This document shows positions 23,783 through 38,597 of a stretch of 47,418 bases of DNA, in pieces. Position 1 is the stretch's first letter; each line of letters begins with the position of its first letter. This DNA comes from Planctomycetota bacterium (lineage in GTDB: Bacteria; Planctomycetota; MHYJ01; JACPRB01), in assembly GCA_016190155.1 (NCBI GenBank), contig JACPRB010000095.1:1-47418 (forward strand), written 5' to 3'. The notes under the pieces were generated by a model. It saw only the letters and a program-made list of their open reading frames with translations, was not told the DNA's origin and made no database searches. The position numbers and the translations under genes were made by a program.

Positions 23783-23911
23783 GGGCTTTTCAGGGAGTGG
23801 GGAGGATCCTAGCGGAGCCGGGGGAGCAAGTCAATTCTTCGAAAAGGACTTGCGGACTTCGCATTAAAAATGTACAACAGGGGAGGTGCGGGCAGGCCTG
23901 GAGGGGTGGCT

Positions 23912-26017
23912 ATGCGGGAGCCCGAGGGTCGGGTGTGGCTGCACGCGGACAGAGTCTTGCGCTGTCTCGTCGCCGCCGTCTGGGTCGTGACGGTCGCTTG
24001 CGGCGGGGAAAAATCGTCCAGCCGGCAAGACCCCGCCGCCTCTTCGCCGGCGGAACCGCCGCCGCCCCCCTCCAACGTGATCAGACTGAATCAGGGCCAA
24101 ACATACGGGGCCATGACGCTGGCGACGTCCGACGTCGTTCTTGACGGCCAGGGCGCATGGATCATCGGCGCCGCGTTCGGCGATCCCCGCAATTTCACCG
24201 GCACGGGCATCAGGGTCGCGGGCGTCGCCAACGTCATCATCCGCAACGTCAACGTACGGGGCTTCGAGACGGGACTGCGGGTCGCGGACAGCTCGAACGT
24301 GCTCGTGGAGGGATGCAACTTCTCGGACAACTTCCACGATCCCTCGTTCGGGTGGGGAGAGAACGGCCGGCGCGGCGGCATCGTGATGGAACGCGTCACG
24401 AACTCCGTCCTTCGCAACAATCGCGCGAATCGCGTCTGGGACGCGTGCGTGCTGGTCGATTCCGACGACAACACGATCGAGAACAACGACTTCTCCGTGA
24501 CGTCCGACACGTGCCTCAAGATGTGGACGTCGTGCCGCAACACGGTGCGCGACAACAACCTCAGTTACGGGATCCGGATCAGTCCCGGCGAGGTCCATGC
24601 GCGCGATTCGTGTTGCGTGCTGATCGAGAGCGGGTCCAACGGCAACACGTTCCTCAACAACAACGCCACGCACGGGGGAGACGGCTTCTTCCTGCGCGGG
24701 ATGAACCGCTGGGTCAGCACGGGGAATTATTTCGAGGGCAACGACGCGTCCTACGCGAACAACAACTGTTTCGAGTCGTGGTGTCCCGGCAACACCTACG
24801 TCGGCAACACGGCGAATTGGGGGAGTTACGGTTTCTGGATGGGCGCCTCCAACAAGACCGTGCTCATCGGCAACGAAGCCGCGTATAATGGACAGCCCAG
24901 CGGCAACGACAACGCCCCCGAGCCTGGATTCGGCTTCGGCGGAATCGTCATCGTGAACGATCCGTCCGCCCACGTGTTCGTGTCGCAGAACAATTGCCAT
25001 CACAACAACGGCGGGGGCGTGGTCCTGCGCGGGGACATGGCGACCGCCGGCGGCAAGTACAAGGCGCGCCACTGGATCATCCAGCAGAACACGCTGGAGG
25101 CGAACCGGTGGGGCATCTACATGCAATACGCCGACTGGGTCAGCGTGGCCGCCAATACGTATCTCAACAACACGATGGGGACCGTGGCCAACGTGGGCGG
25201 CGTCACCAATCTGACGATGTATCCCGACAATCTGTCGGTCACGCAGAGTCCGAACGTCGTCCTGGAAGGGCCGTCGATCGTTTCCGCCGGCGCCGCGTTC
25301 TCGATGAGCACGGAGAAGACGGTGGACCCGGCGGGATTGCCCCTGACGTTCCGGTGGGATCTCGGGGACGGGACGATTTCGACGGCCGCCGATCTGACGC
25401 ACGCGTACGCCGCCGCCGGTTTCTACCGGCTGGGCTTGACGGTGAACAACGGGTCGCTCTCTCAGCTGGCGTATCGGGACATGTACGTCTTGGAGAACGT
25501 CCCTGAAGTCGGGACGGACGGGGCGGCTTCGTTATGGGCGCTCGCGGACGAGGGGTTCGGCTCCGTGCCGACGTTCTCCAACGATACGACCGTCGCGCTT
25601 CACGGCGGTTCCTCGATCAAGGCCGTCATCAAGCCGTACAGCGGGAGTCGCGTGCATCTGCAGTATCCGAGCACGCAGTTCGCGGGGATCAGTCTGGCGG
25701 GGAAGACGCACGTCGTGTTCTGGATCAAGCATCAGAATCAGAATGTATGGAGCTGGCAGGACACGAATCCGACCGTTCGGCTCTATCAGACCGGAGGGCA
25801 GTCCCGCATGTTCACTCCGACGTCCGATCTGCTCCACAATCCGCCATACGTGGAAGCGTGCGAGGGCTGGCTCTACGTGGCGATCCCGCTCGCGGGCGGG
25901 AGCGGATGGACGGTCTCCGGATCGGCGTTATCCACGGTCAACTGGATCCGGATCGGCGTGGACTCGTGGGAGTACGAGCCGATCACGGTGTGGGTGGACG
26001 GGTTGGGGTTCAGGTAG
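23912..26017 (+). CDS. Secreted beta-helix lipoprotein with PKD domain
   Basis: 701 residues from the ATG at 23912, chosen for GAGGGG 6 nt upstream; a start at 23870 adds 14 residues. A signal segment (LRCLVAAVWVVTVAC) ends in an imperfect lipobox, so it is probably anchored in a membrane or exported. Residues about 55-440 are Asn-rich strands of a right-handed parallel beta-helix (NosD/pectate-lyase type), with repeats such as NTFLNNNATHGGDG. A PKD-like domain follows (FRWDLGDGTISTAADLTHAY, about 470-530), then a C-terminal beta-sandwich of carbohydrate-binding type. A role in polysaccharide binding or cleavage is inferred from architecture; no catalytic residues are assigned. Confidence 0.8.
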   Translation: MREPEGRVWLHADRVLRCLVAAVWVVTVACGGEKSSSRQDPAASSPAEPPPPPSNVIRLNQGQTYGAMTLATSDVVLDGQGAWIIGAAFGDPRNFTGTGIRVAGVANVIIRNVNVRGFETGLRVADSSNVLVEGCNFSDNFHDPSFGWGENGRRGGIVMERVTNSVLRNNRANRVWDACVLVDSDDNTIENNDFSVTSDTCLKMWTSCRNTVRDNNLSYGIRISPGEVHARDSCCVLIESGSNGNTFLNNNATHGGDGFFLRGMNRWVSTGNYFEGNDASYANNNCFESWCPGNTYVGNTANWGSYGFWMGASNKTVLIGNEAAYNGQPSGNDNAPEPGFGFGGIVIVNDPSAHVFVSQNNCHHNNGGGVVLRGDMATAGGKYKARHWIIQQNTLEANRWGIYMQYADWVSVAANTYLNNTMGTVANVGGVTNLTMYPDNLSVTQSPNVVLEGPSIVSAGAAFSMSTEKTVDPAGLPLTFRWDLGDGTISTAADLTHAYAAAGFYRLGLTVNNGSLSQLAYRDMYVLENVPEVGTDGAASLWALADEGFGSVPTFSNDTTVALHGGSSIKAVIKPYSGSRVHLQYPSTQFAGISLAGKTHVVFWIKHQNQNVWSWQDTNPTVRLYQTGGQSRMFTPTSDLLHNPPYVEACEGWLYVAIPLAGGSGWTVSGSALSTVNWIRIGVDSWEYEPITVWVDGLGFR

Positions 26018-26083: not shown

Positions 26084-26112
26084 TTGCAATAGGTGGACGG
26101 CTCTGGTAAAAC
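26084..26112 (+). promoter_or_regulatory. Candidate promoter of the chimeric sigma gene
   Basis: TTGCAA (26084-26089), exactly 17 bp, TAAAAC (26107-26112), then 6 nt to the GTG start. Both boxes match consensus at 4 of 6 positions. No ribosome site is present. Confidence 0.35.
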
Positions 26113-26118
26113 CCGTCC

Positions 26119-27369
26119 GTGCCGCGCAAGGAGACGTCCCTGGCGGGGGGCAACCCGGCTTTCCCGCGCACGCAATGGTCCGTGATCGCGATCGCCCAGG
26201 CGGGCGATCCGCAGGAGCGCCGGCGCGCGCTCGAGGGGCTGATTGCGGCCTACTGGAAGCCGGCGTATTACTTTTTGCGCGGGGGTGGGTACGCGATCGA
26301 AGATGCCAAGGATCTCACCCAGGGGTTCTTCGCGATGCTTCTCGAGAAGGACGTGTTGGAGGGGGTCTCGCGCGGAAAGACCGCCTTTCGGACGTTCCTG
26401 CTCGTGGCCCTGAAGCGATTCGTCTCGAAGGAACGCGATCGCGCAAGGGCCCTCAAGCGCGGCGGAGGGCGCCGCATACTCGGGCTCGAGTTCGACTCGG
26501 CGGAGCGGGAGTTCGGGACGGGGTCGGCGTGGCCCACCCCGGAGCAGGCGTTCGCGCACTCGTGGTATCGCTCCCTGTTGGAACGTGCGATGGCTCGATT
26601 GGAAAGGGAGTGTGGCGATTCCCGGCCTCATGCGCGGCTCCTGCTCGAAGTGTCGCGGGCGGACAAGCCGCGCATCTTCCAGGACCAGTTCGCCGTCGTG
26701 CTGGAACAGGCGGAGCTTTCGGTGGAGGGAGAAAGTCCGGAGAAGATGGAGGTGCGTTGCCACATTACGTTCGCCTGGGAACCCGGCAATCGGTTTGTGG
26801 GTCTCACCGAGAAGCTCGATTCTGCAAGGGATGATCGAGGGCGCTCCTGGCTTGGTTGGGTGGCGATGCCTCCCCTGACGGGCTCGTGGGTGACGCACAA
26901 GACGTTCGTGCTTGGTCCCCGGTTCGATCCGGACGCGAAAGGGGTCTCCCGACTGAGCGGGCATTTCACTTTGAGGGTCCCCGAGGAGTTTTCGGTGGAA
27001 CAGATCGTGGATCTCCATTCCGATAGCTGGGTAGAAGCCGGTTTTGTTCAGGCGCGGATTGGGCGTGACGAAACTTCCGAGAATCTCACCTATCGGATCG
27101 AGTTCCGTGCTCCGGCGTGGCCGCACTTTCGGCCTGACGATACGGGTTACCGTGTGATCGACGACATGGGTACGATGCACGTGGGTCAGGGAGCGAGGTT
27201 CAGCCATGATGTCCGTACGCGCGTGCAAGCGGCGGTCGTCGGCTTTCAAGTCCCCGCGGACACGAAGGTCAAACGACTGTACCTGATAGCGCCGCGCACA
27301 TGGCGCACGGTGGAGGTACCGTTCGAGTTCAAGGACGTCGCGCTTTCTCCCGCTAAGGAGCCCAAGTAA
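26119..27369 (+). CDS. Chimeric protein: ECF sigma region 2 fused to a beta-rich domain
   Basis: 416 residues from a GTG. Residues 17-110 are a planctomycete-type ECF sigma region 2 (RTQWSVIAIAQAG, AAYWKPAYYFLR, EDAKDLTQGFFAMLLEKDVL), and PEQAFAHSWYRSLLERAM matches the linker of the paralogue at 36214. From about residue 180 the expected region 4 helix-turn-helix is absent; the frame continues into about 235 residues of beta-rich sequence ending VEVPFEFKDVAL, unlike any sigma domain and less GC-biased in codon use. It may be a deletion fusion of two genes or a real architecture. Without region 4 it is unlikely to recognise -35 DNA as a normal ECF does. Confidence 0.7.
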   Translation: MPRKETSLAGGNPAFPRTQWSVIAIAQAGDPQERRRALEGLIAAYWKPAYYFLRGGGYAIEDAKDLTQGFFAMLLEKDVLEGVSRGKTAFRTFLLVALKRFVSKERDRARALKRGGGRRILGLEFDSAEREFGTGSAWPTPEQAFAHSWYRSLLERAMARLERECGDSRPHARLLLEVSRADKPRIFQDQFAVVLEQAELSVEGESPEKMEVRCHITFAWEPGNRFVGLTEKLDSARDDRGRSWLGWVAMPPLTGSWVTHKTFVLGPRFDPDAKGVSRLSGHFTLRVPEEFSVEQIVDLHSDSWVEAGFVQARIGRDETSENLTYRIEFRAPAWPHFRPDDTGYRVIDDMGTMHVGQGARFSHDVRTRVQAAVVGFQVPADTKVKRLYLIAPRTWRTVEVPFEFKDVALSPAKEPK

Positions 27370-27371
27370 GC

Positions 27372-28694
27372 CTACAAAGTCAGCGTGAAATCGTCCACCA
27401 GCGCCCCGGGCACCAGGCGGCTTTGCGTGGATCGCTGATAGTAGGTCCCCGGGTCGAGGATCAGATCCTGTTCCCTCGTCAGCCCCACGAGATTCTCCCC
27501 CAGCATCCGGAAGAGCGTCTCGTCGAATCGCATCACGTTCAGCGGCGCCTTGATCCGCGCGCCTTCCACCCAGAACGTGGCGAAGCGCGTCATGCCGGTC
27601 GTCCGGCAATTGCTCCGGTCTGAATAGTTGAGGTACCAGACGTTGCCCACGTAGATTCCCGTCTCCAACGTACGGAGCACTCTTTCCATGGGCAGATCTC
27701 CCGGCGCCACCTCCAGCGACTCCGGGATCTCCATGAGCGAGGCCCCGTTCGTGGGCACGCCGTACTCCATCGCCGAGCGGGGAGAGACGAGGCAATCGCG
27801 ATGGGCTCCGGCCTCGATCAGCGTCACGCGATCAGGACGAATGAACCCCGCCTCCTGGAAGTTGGCCGCGATTCCGGCCCCGGTGTGTTCCGCGATGTTC
27901 ACCGACGGATGCATGCGCACTTCGCCTTCGATCATCTTCAGCAGCGGCGTCTGCTTTGTCCGGTGGGACTTCAGCCCGAAGCCGCCCGAGTTGAGGATGC
28001 CGACGATGTCATAGAGGGCCGCGGGGGCGAGATAGACCCGGTACCGGCCGGGATGGACGGTGCGCGCAGGATGCGAGAGCGCCTCCAGCTGTTCCTTTGC
28101 CCACGAAACCTTGCGGTCGAACTCCTGGGGCTTCCACTCGAAGCCGGCGTAGGTCGTCTTCACCGCCTTGTCGAGCTGATGGTAGAAGCTCCAATCGAAG
28201 TTGAAGGTGTGGGTGCCGTACCAATTCCGCTGGCCGAACGAATTGGCGAATCCTTTGTGGATGCCGCCGGAGGCGTAGATGCCGACCAGGTCCCGCCCTT
28301 GGCCCGCCTTGCGGATTTCCTCCACCGCGGCCGCGGCGTCCGGCAGGCGGCTCGAGCCGGTGCGCTCCGTCGATCGCACCTCGGTGGCATAGAGAAGATG
28401 GGGATCCTCCGGGAGGTGGCTCCTTAGCTCTCGCAGGCTCTTGATCAGCCGGGCGATCCGCGGCCGGTCGGTCTCCAGATCCCCGGAGAGCGATCCACAG
28501 CCGGACGCGTGCCGCTTCCCGGAAATCAGGTCGATCTCCAGCATCCGCTGGGTGACGTGCCCCGCCTGGCGGATCTCGTTGCGATTGAAGCGCACGAAGT
28601 CCGAGTCCTCCGCGCCGAAATCGGAGGTGAACGCCTCGTCCGCATGAAGATGGGACTGGATTTCGTCGGCGATCGTGTTGAAGTATTCCCGCAT
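27372..28694 (-). CDS. TldE/PmbA-like metalloprotease homologue (non-catalytic partner)
   Basis: 440 residues of the TldD/PmbA family: GKRHASGCGSLSGD, YASGGIHKGFANSFGQRNW, LETGIYVGNVWYLNYSDRSN and MTRFATFWVEGARI. It lacks the HExxxH zinc motif found in the upstream partner, as is usual for the E subunit. The start at 28694 lies 1 nt after the partner's stop and is preceded by GGAG. With TldD it forms a heterodimer that degrades unfolded peptides and processes some ribosomal peptides. The convergent chimeric sigma gene ends 2 nt away. Confidence 0.85.
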   Translation of the reverse strand: MREYFNTIADEIQSHLHADEAFTSDFGAEDSDFVRFNRNEIRQAGHVTQRMLEIDLISGKRHASGCGSLSGDLETDRPRIARLIKSLRELRSHLPEDPHLLYATEVRSTERTGSSRLPDAAAAVEEIRKAGQGRDLVGIYASGGIHKGFANSFGQRNWYGTHTFNFDWSFYHQLDKAVKTTYAGFEWKPQEFDRKVSWAKEQLEALSHPARTVHPGRYRVYLAPAALYDIVGILNSGGFGLKSHRTKQTPLLKMIEGEVRMHPSVNIAEHTGAGIAANFQEAGFIRPDRVTLIEAGAHRDCLVSPRSAMEYGVPTNGASLMEIPESLEVAPGDLPMERVLRTLETGIYVGNVWYLNYSDRSNCRTTGMTRFATFWVEGARIKAPLNVMRFDETLFRMLGENLVGLTREQDLILDPGTYYQRSTQSRLVPGALVDDFTLTL

Positions 28695-28695
28695 G

Positions 28696-30129
28696 CTAGG
28701 CTCCGCCAAACACGTCGACATTGCCGAAGACGCACGCCGGGGAGGCATGACCCACGCGGATCGACTGGTTCGGTTCGCCCTTGCCGCAGAAGGGCGTCCC
28801 CAGCACCTGCAGGCCCGCGGCGTCGCCCACCTGTTTGAGGCTCCGCCAGAAGGTGGCGGAGACGCCTCGGTAATTGGGCTTGCGGACCACGCCTTTGAGC
28901 TCCCCGTCCTCGATCATCCGCCCCCACTCGCATCCGAACTGAAACTTGTTGCGGGAGTCGTCGATCGACCAGGAGCAATTGGTCTCCATGGCGATGCCGC
29001 GCTCGATTCCGCGCACCATCTCGTCGAACGTGGACTCGCCCGGCTCCAGGTTGAGGTTCGCCATCCGATCGATGGGCGGGCGGTTCCAGCCCGCCGCCCG
29101 GGAGTTGGCGACGCCAGGAATGCCCGCTCGCGCCTGCGAGATCGCCCCGCCGAGCGGCCGCAGCAGGATGCCGTTGCGGATGATGTACTCCTTCTTCGCG
29201 GGTGTCCCGTCGTCGTCGAAGGCGTAGGTCGCGAGTTGATTGGGCCGCGTCGGGTCGAACGTGACGTTGAGGAGCTCGGTCCCGTAGCGATACGCCCCGA
29301 ACATGTCGAGCGTGACGAAGCTCGTGCCCGCGTAGTTTCGTTCGTCTCCGAGAATCCGGTCGAGCTCCAGCGGGTGCCCGATCGATTCGTGGATCTGGAG
29401 GATCATCTGATCGGGCGCGAGCAGCACCTCCATCTTTCCGGTGGGGCAGTCCGGGGCCGCCAGGAGCTGGAGCGCTTCGGATGAGATCCGGGGGGCCGCC
29501 TCGTGGAATCCCAGATCGTCCAGGACCTCCAGGCCGCCCTGCCGCGCGCAGCCGATGCCGCCGAACGAGCGCGTCTGCGTCTCCGTCCCCTCGTTCGCCG
29601 TGGCGGTCATGTTGGGCACGAGAAAGTGGAAGCGCTGATAGACTCGCCCTCCGTCGGACGTCAGAAGGAGCGTCTCCAGCTCCGTATGCCAGAGGCGTGC
29701 GTCCCAGTCGACGATCCGGTCGTCCGCTTTGAGTTGCTCGCACACCTCTTGAAGGAGGGCGATCTTGTCGCCGAGCGAGACCGAATCCCAAGGCTTCGCG
29801 GGACGGGACGTGTATTCGCCCTTCGGCGAGCGCGGGTGGACCCGGGTGAAGTCCAGCACGCTCTTCCCGGCCGTGCGATGCGCCCACTCGAGAGCCTTGT
29901 CGGCGGCGCGCTTCAGCCCGGCGCGCGTCAGGTCGCAGGTTCCGGCGTAACCCAGTCCGCCTCCGTCGACCACGGTGATCATCGCGCCGACATCTTCCGA
30001 CGTGGAGACCGGTTCCACGATGTTCTGGCGGACGGCGACTTGCTCGTTGCGCCCGCGAACGTATCGGAGGGAAGCGTAGTCCGCCTCGGGCGCGGCCTCC
30101 CGGAAAAGTCTCTCGACGGCTTCCAGCAT
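28696..30129 (-). CDS. TldD-like metalloprotease
   Basis: 477 residues from the ATG at 30129, chosen for GGAGG 5 nt upstream. The zinc-binding HExxxH motif is present as IHESIGHPLELDR near residue 248, with YAFDDDGTPAKKEYIIRNG and a C-terminal glycine-rich segment. This makes it the catalytic half of a TldD-TldE protease, with the TldE-like gene next to it. No precursor peptide or microcin gene is seen nearby, so a general peptide-degrading role is as likely as a maturation role. Confidence 0.88.
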   Translation of the reverse strand: MLEAVERLFREAAPEADYASLRYVRGRNEQVAVRQNIVEPVSTSEDVGAMITVVDGGGLGYAGTCDLTRAGLKRAADKALEWAHRTAGKSVLDFTRVHPRSPKGEYTSRPAKPWDSVSLGDKIALLQEVCEQLKADDRIVDWDARLWHTELETLLLTSDGGRVYQRFHFLVPNMTATANEGTETQTRSFGGIGCARQGGLEVLDDLGFHEAAPRISSEALQLLAAPDCPTGKMEVLLAPDQMILQIHESIGHPLELDRILGDERNYAGTSFVTLDMFGAYRYGTELLNVTFDPTRPNQLATYAFDDDGTPAKKEYIIRNGILLRPLGGAISQARAGIPGVANSRAAGWNRPPIDRMANLNLEPGESTFDEMVRGIERGIAMETNCSWSIDDSRNKFQFGCEWGRMIEDGELKGVVRKPNYRGVSATFWRSLKQVGDAAGLQVLGTPFCGKGEPNQSIRVGHASPACVFGNVDVFGGA

Positions 30130-36213: not shown

Positions 36214-36861
36214 ATGTCGGAAGAGACGGCGACGGGCGGGCCGAACGTCCGCTTTCAGCAGACGCTTTGGACGATGGTGCTGGAGGCGAAGCAGGGGACG
36301 GCCGAGAGCGTGGATCGGCTCGTGGCGCTGTACTGGAAGCCCGTCTACTTTTTCATCCGCCGGCGGGGGTATTCGATCGAGGACGCAAAGGACCTGACGC
36401 AGTCGTACTTCGCGACGTTCTTGGAGAAGGACTTCCTGAAGGACGTCTCGCCGGATCGGGGACGCTTCCGGTCGTTCGTGCTGGCGACCGTGGCGCATTT
36501 CCTGTCGAACGAGGCGCATCGGGCGCGCGCGAAGAAGCGGGGCGGGGATTTCGATTTCGTCCGGGCGGAGACGGAGATCGTGTCGGCCGAAGCCGAGCCC
36601 GAGAAGGCCTTCCTCAAGCAGTGGGCGCTGGAGACGCTGGGGCAGGCCATGGATCGGCTCCGGAAAGAGTGTTCGGCGGAGGACGTGGCGCTCTTGAACG
36701 GCGCGGCGCGGCCGGATCTGAGCGAGAGCGACCGGAAGAACCGGCTTCATCGCCTGCGACAGCGGCTGCGCGAGTGCCTGCGGGAGATCGTGCGGGCGTC
36801 GGTGGAGCGGGAGAGCGACGTGGAGGACGAGGTGCGGGAACTTCTTGCAACGCTGGGCTGA
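36214..36861 (+). CDS. ECF sigma factor, planctomycete type
   Basis: 215 residues. Region 2 carries FQQTLWTMVLEAKQG, LVALYWKPVYFFIRRRGYS and EDAKDLTQSYFATFLEKDFL; after a linker (EPEKAFLKQWALETLGQAM), region 4 is short but ends SDRKNRLHRLRQRLRECLRE like other members. These sigma factors lack a linked membrane anti-sigma and are usually next to a Ser/Thr kinase, as here: the kinase gene begins 53 nt downstream. Control by phosphorylation is inferred. Region 2 is clearly homologous to the chimeric protein at 26119. Confidence 0.88.
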   Translation: MSEETATGGPNVRFQQTLWTMVLEAKQGTAESVDRLVALYWKPVYFFIRRRGYSIEDAKDLTQSYFATFLEKDFLKDVSPDRGRFRSFVLATVAHFLSNEAHRARAKKRGGDFDFVRAETEIVSAEAEPEKAFLKQWALETLGQAMDRLRKECSAEDVALLNGAARPDLSESDRKNRLHRLRQRLRECLREIVRASVERESDVEDEVRELLATLG

Positions 36862-36914: not shown

Positions 36915-38597
36915 ATGGAATGTCCGCGTTGCCGCAAGGAAGTGCCTGAGCCGGTGTTGCAGCGTTACGGGGGCGTTTGTCCGCCGTGTCTGGCCGGTTT
37001 CGCGGGGGAGGGCGCGGGGGCGCCGACGGAGCTTGAGGTGCCGACGGTTCAGCCGGGGATGCGCTTTCACGGGTTTGAGATCGTGCGCCGGTTGGGTCAG
37101 GGCGGGATGGGGACGGTGTACGAGGCGCGGCAGGTGGGGCTGGAGCGGTCGGTGGCGCTGAAGATCCTGTCGGCGAAGCTGGCGCAGGACGAGCAATTCG
37201 CGCAGCGGTTCGCGCGGGAGGCGAAGGCGATGGCGTCGCTGAACCACCCGAACATCGTGCAGGTGTTCGATTTCGGGAAGGAGGACGGGCGGTACTTCCT
37301 GGCGATGGAGTATGTGGAGGGGGTGTCGCTGCGGGGCTTGATGGCGGGGAATCGTTTGCGGCCTGAGGAGGCGCTGCGGATCGTGCCGCAGATCTGCGAG
37401 GCGCTGGAGTACGCGCACGGGCATGGGGTGGTGCACCGGGACATCAAGCCGGAGAACATCTTGGTGGGGCGGGACGGGCGGGTGAAGATCGCGGACTTCG
37501 GGCTGGCGAAGATGGTGATGGAGGAAGGGGGGACGCTGACGCGGACGAGCGTGGCGATGGGGACGCCGCAGTACATGGCGCCGGAGCAGTACGAGCGGAT
37601 GAAGGACGTGGACCATCGGGCGGACATCTATTCGTTGGGGGTGGTGTTCTACGAGATGCTGACGGGGGAGGTTCCGGCGGGGCACTTTCAGCCGCCGTCG
37701 CGGAAGGTGGACGTGGATGCGCGGCTGGACGGAATCGTGCTCAAGGCGATGGCGAGGGAGCCGGAGAAGCGATATCAGCGGGCGGTGGAAGTGAGGACGG
37801 ACATGGAGCTGATGGCGTCGGGACGCGGGGTCGTAAATGAGGTACAACCAGCGCCGGCGCGGACTTCCAAGGTTGCGGTGTGGAGTCTGGCGTGTTGGGG
37901 CATTGCGGTGGCGGCGCTGGTTGCCGGAGCGGTAGGGGATGCTGAAGGGGTGAGATGGATTGCCTCGCTGGGAAAGACGGGTGCGATCCTCGCTTTCTTG
38001 GCCTCGCCGATTCTGGCCATTGCCGCGCTGATTCGGATTCATCTGAGCCACGGACGGCTGGTCGGAAGGGCGTATGCCGTGACGGCGCTTGCGTTCCTCC
38101 TCCTCCCTTGCGCCGCAATAGCTGTCTTGTCTTATTCTACAGGTATGCCTGTAGAAGAGGTTAGTCAGCGCCGGTCCGTGCCCGCGCGACGGCCGTTGAA
38201 ACTTGATCTTGATGATGTGGTGTCGGACCTGAAGCTCACGCACGGAAGCCTCTTCGCGGACGGGCAGGGCTGGGTTGTCACGCGAGAGCACTCCGAGATC
38301 CGTGAAATCCGGGCGGAATGGGATCGTCTCTTGGGCCGCCAGACCTTCACGTCCGATAACTACACGGGGGCATGGCGCGGCGTCCTTCAAACGGGAGGCA
38401 CGATCATCATCATCTTGGAGATGAACGGGGGAGCGGGATCAGGCCGCTCCCTGAAGGAAACGGCGGGCCCAGGGTCTTTTCGGTGTCTTGAATCAGATAG
38501 TTTCCACGCACTCATTCGTCAGACGCGCGACGACGAGGTCACCTCCGAAGAGGCGCGCCGGGTGGCGGATCTTCTTCGGGGGAAGTTCAAGCCGTGA
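36915..38597 (+). CDS. Membrane Ser/Thr protein kinase with N-terminal zinc ribbon
   Basis: 560 residues. Residues 3-30 hold CPRC and CPPC (zinc ribbon). The Hanks-type kinase domain spans about 52-310: RLGQGGMGTVYEARQ, VALKIL with the ATP lysine, HRDIKPENIL near 174, DFGLAKM, GTPQYMAPEQ, and ADIYSLGVVFYEMLTGEVP. Three hydrophobic segments (about 319-340, 347-375, 386-405) anchor it, followed by an extracytoplasmic tail of about 150 residues with no recognised domain. GGAGGA precedes the ATG. It is paired with the ECF sigma gene upstream, its likely target. The 3' end overlaps the convergent zinc-ribbon gene by 11 nt. Confidence 0.92.
   Translation: MECPRCRKEVPEPVLQRYGGVCPPCLAGFAGEGAGAPTELEVPTVQPGMRFHGFEIVRRLGQGGMGTVYEARQVGLERSVALKILSAKLAQDEQFAQRFAREAKAMASLNHPNIVQVFDFGKEDGRYFLAMEYVEGVSLRGLMAGNRLRPEEALRIVPQICEALEYAHGHGVVHRDIKPENILVGRDGRVKIADFGLAKMVMEEGGTLTRTSVAMGTPQYMAPEQYERMKDVDHRADIYSLGVVFYEMLTGEVPAGHFQPPSRKVDVDARLDGIVLKAMAREPEKRYQRAVEVRTDMELMASGRGVVNEVQPAPARTSKVAVWSLACWGIAVAALVAGAVGDAEGVRWIASLGKTGAILAFLASPILAIAALIRIHLSHGRLVGRAYAVTALAFLLLPCAAIAVLSYSTGMPVEEVSQRRSVPARRPLKLDLDDVVSDLKLTHGSLFADGQGWVVTREHSEIREIRAEWDRLLGRQTFTSDNYTGAWRGVLQTGGTIIIILEMNGGAGSGRSLKETAGPGSFRCLESDSFHALIRQTRDDEVTSEEARRVADLLRGKFKP

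Follow-up and report, generated by a model that had tools for sequence, protein, structure and literature searches.

Region 2 of a sigma factor contacts the beta-prime clamp helices and the -10 element, and region 4 contacts -35 DNA and the flap. In planctomycetes, ECF sigmas linked to protein kinases (NCBIfam TIGR02937, with TIGR02989, the Rhodopirellula/Verrucomicrobium family, for the sister gene considered below) occur as many paralogues per genome, and in the case of EcfK/PknS a Hanks-type kinase is known to phosphorylate an ECF sigma (PMC13147305). ECF sigmas that carry an extra C-terminal domain are also known; in ECF56/SigG1, with its SnoaL_2 domain, and in CorE-type ECF238 it comes behind region 4 (PMC7730460, PMC8103513). 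The gene described here likewise joins an ECF sigma to an extra C-terminal domain; however, the domain belongs to another family and substitutes for region 4. With the kinase-linked ECF sigmas the gene has in common the region 2 core-binding positions, the N-terminal start motif and many paralogues in the genome, and it differs from them in its replaced region 4 and in having no adjoining kinase gene.

The window (the whole 47,418-nucleotide stretch of Planctomycetota DNA that was analysed) is contig C25 of a 4.49 Mb draft genome (360 contigs, 88% complete). One uninterrupted forward-strand frame at 26119-27369, from a GTG at 26119 to the stop at 27369, encodes a 416-residue product. The parts of this gene, its 3' neighbour and the sigma gene used for comparison are as follows:

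26119..26622, forward strand: ECF sigma region 2 and the start of the region 2-4 linker, residues 1-168 (BLASTP, sigma HMM)
26620..26670, forward strand: junction zone, residues ~168-184, for which either parent is a possible source
26650..27348, forward strand: complete two-lobed beta domain of an exported Planctomycetota family, residues 178-410 (family HMM)
27316..27339, forward strand: VPFEFKDV, the family C-terminal motif, followed by ALSPAKEPK and not by PLP-stop
27372..28748, reverse strand: convergent PmbA/TldE-type gene (Pfam PF19289), ending 2 bases past the fusion stop
36214..36861, forward strand: second ECF sigma, the comparison paralogue, with a shortened region 4
36915..38597, forward strand: Ser/Thr protein kinase directly 3' of the second ECF sigma (Pfam PF00069, E 8e-56)

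The sigma half, its paralogues and the junction

The original prediction, made from the DNA letters, aligned the N-terminal 175 residues with the ECF sigma at 36214. The alignment holds (43% identity, E 1e-38, residues 4-166 by BLASTP), but the exact joint at residue 175 gives way to a zone at residues ~168-184. In its own genome the fusion protein has 48 matches at E<=1e-5, itself counted, and essentially all of these are to the sigma half. Against a sigma profile of 252 positions, built from 22 sigma ORFs of the same genome, the fusion protein covers just positions 9-175, whereas most paralogues reach 248-251; its sigma half nevertheless scores 189 bits when left out of the profile, within the paralogue range of 156-215, and keeps 23 of the 25 near-invariant paralogue positions. 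The GTG start agrees with the N-terminal motif of the ECF paralogues. By sequence, the first half of the fusion protein is thus an intact ECF sigma region 2. A region 4 with its helix-turn-helix was found neither in the fusion frame nor in any of the six frames nearby, and a frameshift concealing an intact sigma gene was rejected on that ground.

The sigma profile stops at about residue 168 and the beta profile begins at residue 178; the closest sigma paralogue can be aligned up to residue 182, which leaves the junction ambiguous, and residues 170-185 appear by eye to resemble the end of the STN-like part in sister proteins as well. Three-base codon periodicity is unbroken across the junction. 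The different codon bias that had been reported for the C-terminal part is real (GC3 0.84 before the junction and 0.72 after, Fisher p 0.0045) but weak, as an equally large gap occurs in 7% of same-sized splits of ordinary window genes, and we rejected it as proof of a foreign origin.

A kinase gene, recognised by motif, follows 12 of 20 sampled ECF genes of the genome, that at 36214 among them, and none of these usual partners adjoins the fusion gene. Four of 21 paralogues, again including 36214, have a shortened region 4 from which, to judge by the alignment, the first helix of the helix-turn-helix is missing. Since a kinase gene still adjoins at least two of the four, a sigma gene of this lineage that loses region 4 does not necessarily lose its function. 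Two further ECF paralogues (contigs C84 and C88) are frame-broken, which suggests either turnover of an expanded family or assembly errors; the gene set thus seems to decay or rearrange, which favours an origin of the fusion by rearrangement. No Shine-Dalgarno sequence is evident before the GTG of the fusion gene (26094-26119), and the sister ECF gene at 36214 differs in this respect. A NosD-like right-handed beta-helix protein with a PKD domain is encoded on the same strand at 23870-26017, 101 bases upstream. The synteny of the TldD/TldE neighbours, compared in relatives, was not conserved and was uninformative.

The beta domain and the family to which it belongs

Sequence searches with the C-terminal part in Pfam, NCBIfam, PHROGs and the PDB returned nothing, and single-sequence matches from 392 genomes of the phylum and from a scan of GTDB contigs were discarded on checking as being at chance level. 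The terminal VPFEFKD of the fusion protein led to a first related protein from the same class, and GTDB contigs, scanned with a degenerate DNA pattern encoding F-E-[LF]-K-D-x-P-L-P, then yielded 57 loci, mostly from Planctomycetota; together with three loci from relatives, these gave 48 usable members, from which a family HMM was built. Residues 178-410 match this HMM with 44 bits (E 1e-12 for 2000 sequences), and the best of 2000 shuffles scored 6.8. Because members had been picked by the terminal motif, it was taken out of both model and query, after which the match still had 26 bits (E 5e-7; best shuffle 6.6). The match extends over positions 39-288 of 289, and the beta domain is therefore complete. 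The WEP(R), DDxG, LxG and terminal FE[FL]KD positions of the family are all present, and the beta half is no less well conserved than the free-standing members that sister genomes encode.

These results bear out the claim that region 4 had been replaced by unrelated beta-rich sequence: in the AF2 model (pLDDT 79, pTM 0.74) the C-terminal part consists of beta structure throughout, the sequence belongs to a separate family, and no region 4 lies nearby. The relatives of the C-terminal part, which the original prediction had proposed to seek, form a free-standing family. Its usual architecture comprises a signal peptide, a HEAT-like and an STN-like segment and the two-lobed beta domain, with the end FE[FL]KD[VIL]PLP. 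By profile search, members occur in all five genomes of the source organism's bacterial family and in 70 of the 392 genomes sampled from the phylum; the source genome itself has three free-standing members (two in tandem on C158, one on C136), and another free-standing member is a protein of Singulisphaera acidiphila. Among 145 distinct beta ORFs (138 loci), 118 have the HEAT/STN-like N-terminal part, 111 have a signal-like hydrophobic segment upstream (by a crude rule), and one, that of the window, is fused to a sigma.

The fusion protein thus has the complete beta domain in common with the free-standing members, but lacks the export signal and the HEAT-like and STN-like parts, in place of which it has the sigma half; no HEAT/STN segment was found anywhere in the window. 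The C-terminus of the fusion protein (P0001) reads KDVALSPAKEPK and does not have the KD[VIL]PLP end of the family, PLP being exchanged for ALSPAKEPK.

The best fold match of the beta domain in the PDB is 3FBQ (PF18705; E 1.4e-3, probability 0.98), the DUF4179-DUF5643 ectodomain of an ECF anti-sigma factor from Firmicutes, with a low TM-score of 0.23-0.26. DUF5643 commonly comes after DUF4179; the fusion protein, by comparison with the 3FBQ system, has neither the DUF4179 part nor a membrane segment. When DUF5643 was compared with the beta family, one of 33 members matched at E 6e-5 (the best), a same-family gene at 0.0017 and others at 0.1-0.2, and where a position was given the weak matches sit in the second lobe of several members. 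No family member among the matches listed reached the PF18705 gathering cut-off, and the query from the window (P0003) was unmatched. Taken together, these likenesses are suggestive of kinship between the beta family and anti-sigma ectodomains. Foldseek with the full-length model, in which the sigma half was poorly modelled, was uninformative.

Origin and possible role of the fusion

We favour, with a probability of roughly 0.6, an in-frame gene fusion that is specific to this lineage, any role being hypothetical. A chromosomal rearrangement (a deletion or a non-homologous joining) would have placed the beginning of an ECF sigma gene, encoding region 2 and the linker, in frame before the 3' portion of a gene from the exported beta family, with a join close to a domain boundary in each partner. 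Missing from the result are region 4, the kinase gene that usually follows and, from the beta protein, the signal peptide together with the HEAT-like and STN-like segments. The product, if made, would be cytoplasmic, and its region 2 could probably still dock, perhaps weakly, on the beta-prime clamp helices; since region 4 is missing, the protein would contact neither the -35 element nor the beta-flap and would not by itself be a promoter-specific sigma. The chimera, presumably recent and confined to its lineage, would be neutral, compete weakly for core polymerase, or be decaying.

The pairing occurs nowhere else in the survey, and a one-off fusion is therefore more probable than a new class of regulator. 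For the same reason, and because the two halves match separate free-standing families and the kinase neighbour is missing, a deletion joining two genes is the better supported of the two options offered by the original prediction. An ancestral sigma-beta operon, fused by a simple local deletion, was also considered and is unsupported, as no other beta gene adjoins an ECF gene in the stretches scanned. Several observations nevertheless sit less easily with the favoured reading: neither half has decayed and 416 codons remain open, which fits a used protein equally well; the junction lies nearer to domain boundaries, on both sides, than a random deletion usually gives; and paralogues with a short region 4 exist in this genome, some with their kinase retained.

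A second reading is that the protein is a working, sigma-derived one-component regulator. Its region 2 would bind core polymerase, and perhaps -10 DNA too, and this docking would be controlled by the beta domain through a ligand or partner bound there. The integrity of both halves, the precedent of ECF sigmas with C-terminal regulatory extensions (PMC8103513) and the reduction of region 4 already seen in some paralogues here are consistent with it, and PMC6066255 was counted in its favour. However, it would have to be reconciled with a single occurrence among the 145 distinct beta ORFs, with described extensions that come after region 4 and not in its place, with a cytoplasmic location for a member of a family that normally carries export signals, and with the low TM-scores to 3FBQ, and we consider it unlikely. 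The sensor proposed in the original prediction is conceivable but unsupported, the weak anti-sigma ectodomain likeness of the beta family being what points towards it. A more specific version, in which region 4 was exchanged for a domain related to anti-sigma ectodomains to give a self-contained protein whose docking on core polymerase is controlled by a ligand and which regulates with no need to read the -35 element, seems to us quite improbable. If functional, the fusion would be a sigma-derived protein that retains the polymerase-docking half without promoter reading by region 4, and would bear on why planctomycetes have dozens of ECF sigmas, some with a reduced region 4.

It is rather unlikely that the gene is an artefact of assembly or binning, in which two genes were joined, or an intervening stretch lost, in a draft metagenome assembly. 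The draft state of the genome, the sharp change of family and the modest drop of GC3 at the junction count in favour of such an error. Yet the junction lies within a 47 kb contig, its sequence is not repeated elsewhere in the genome, and the tetranucleotide composition of the flanks matches the remainder of the genome (left-right distance 0.147-0.201, against an own-own median of 0.175), and an assembly chimera is disfavoured because of this agreement in composition and the lack of a junction repeat; composition likewise speaks against a chimera between organisms. Furthermore, the reading frame is kept across the join, which falls close to a domain boundary in each half, and neither a lost region 4 beside the gene nor a lost HEAT/STN segment in the window was found.

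A last reading takes the C-terminal 235 residues for a region 4 that has diverged extremely, or for an ECF C-terminal extension of the canonical kind. The reach of the closest paralogue's alignment to residue 182 might be cited for it, but this reading is almost certainly wrong, as it is refuted by the match to a different family over 250 of 289 profile positions, by the all-beta predicted fold and by the lack of any region 4 signal.

Whichever origin applies, the C-terminal half of the fusion led to a family of exported beta-domain proteins that is found across the phylum and whose second lobe hints at anti-sigma ectodomain kinship. Neither Pfam nor NCBIfam has a model for this family, and we regard the family, undescribed in the libraries searched, as a more durable finding than the fusion itself. 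Its PLP-stop is the exact end of nearly all of the 48 usable members, and an end so nearly invariant suggests that a C-terminal signal or strand is being recognised. Tandem pairs of exported beta-family genes are frequent within the bacterial family of the source organism.
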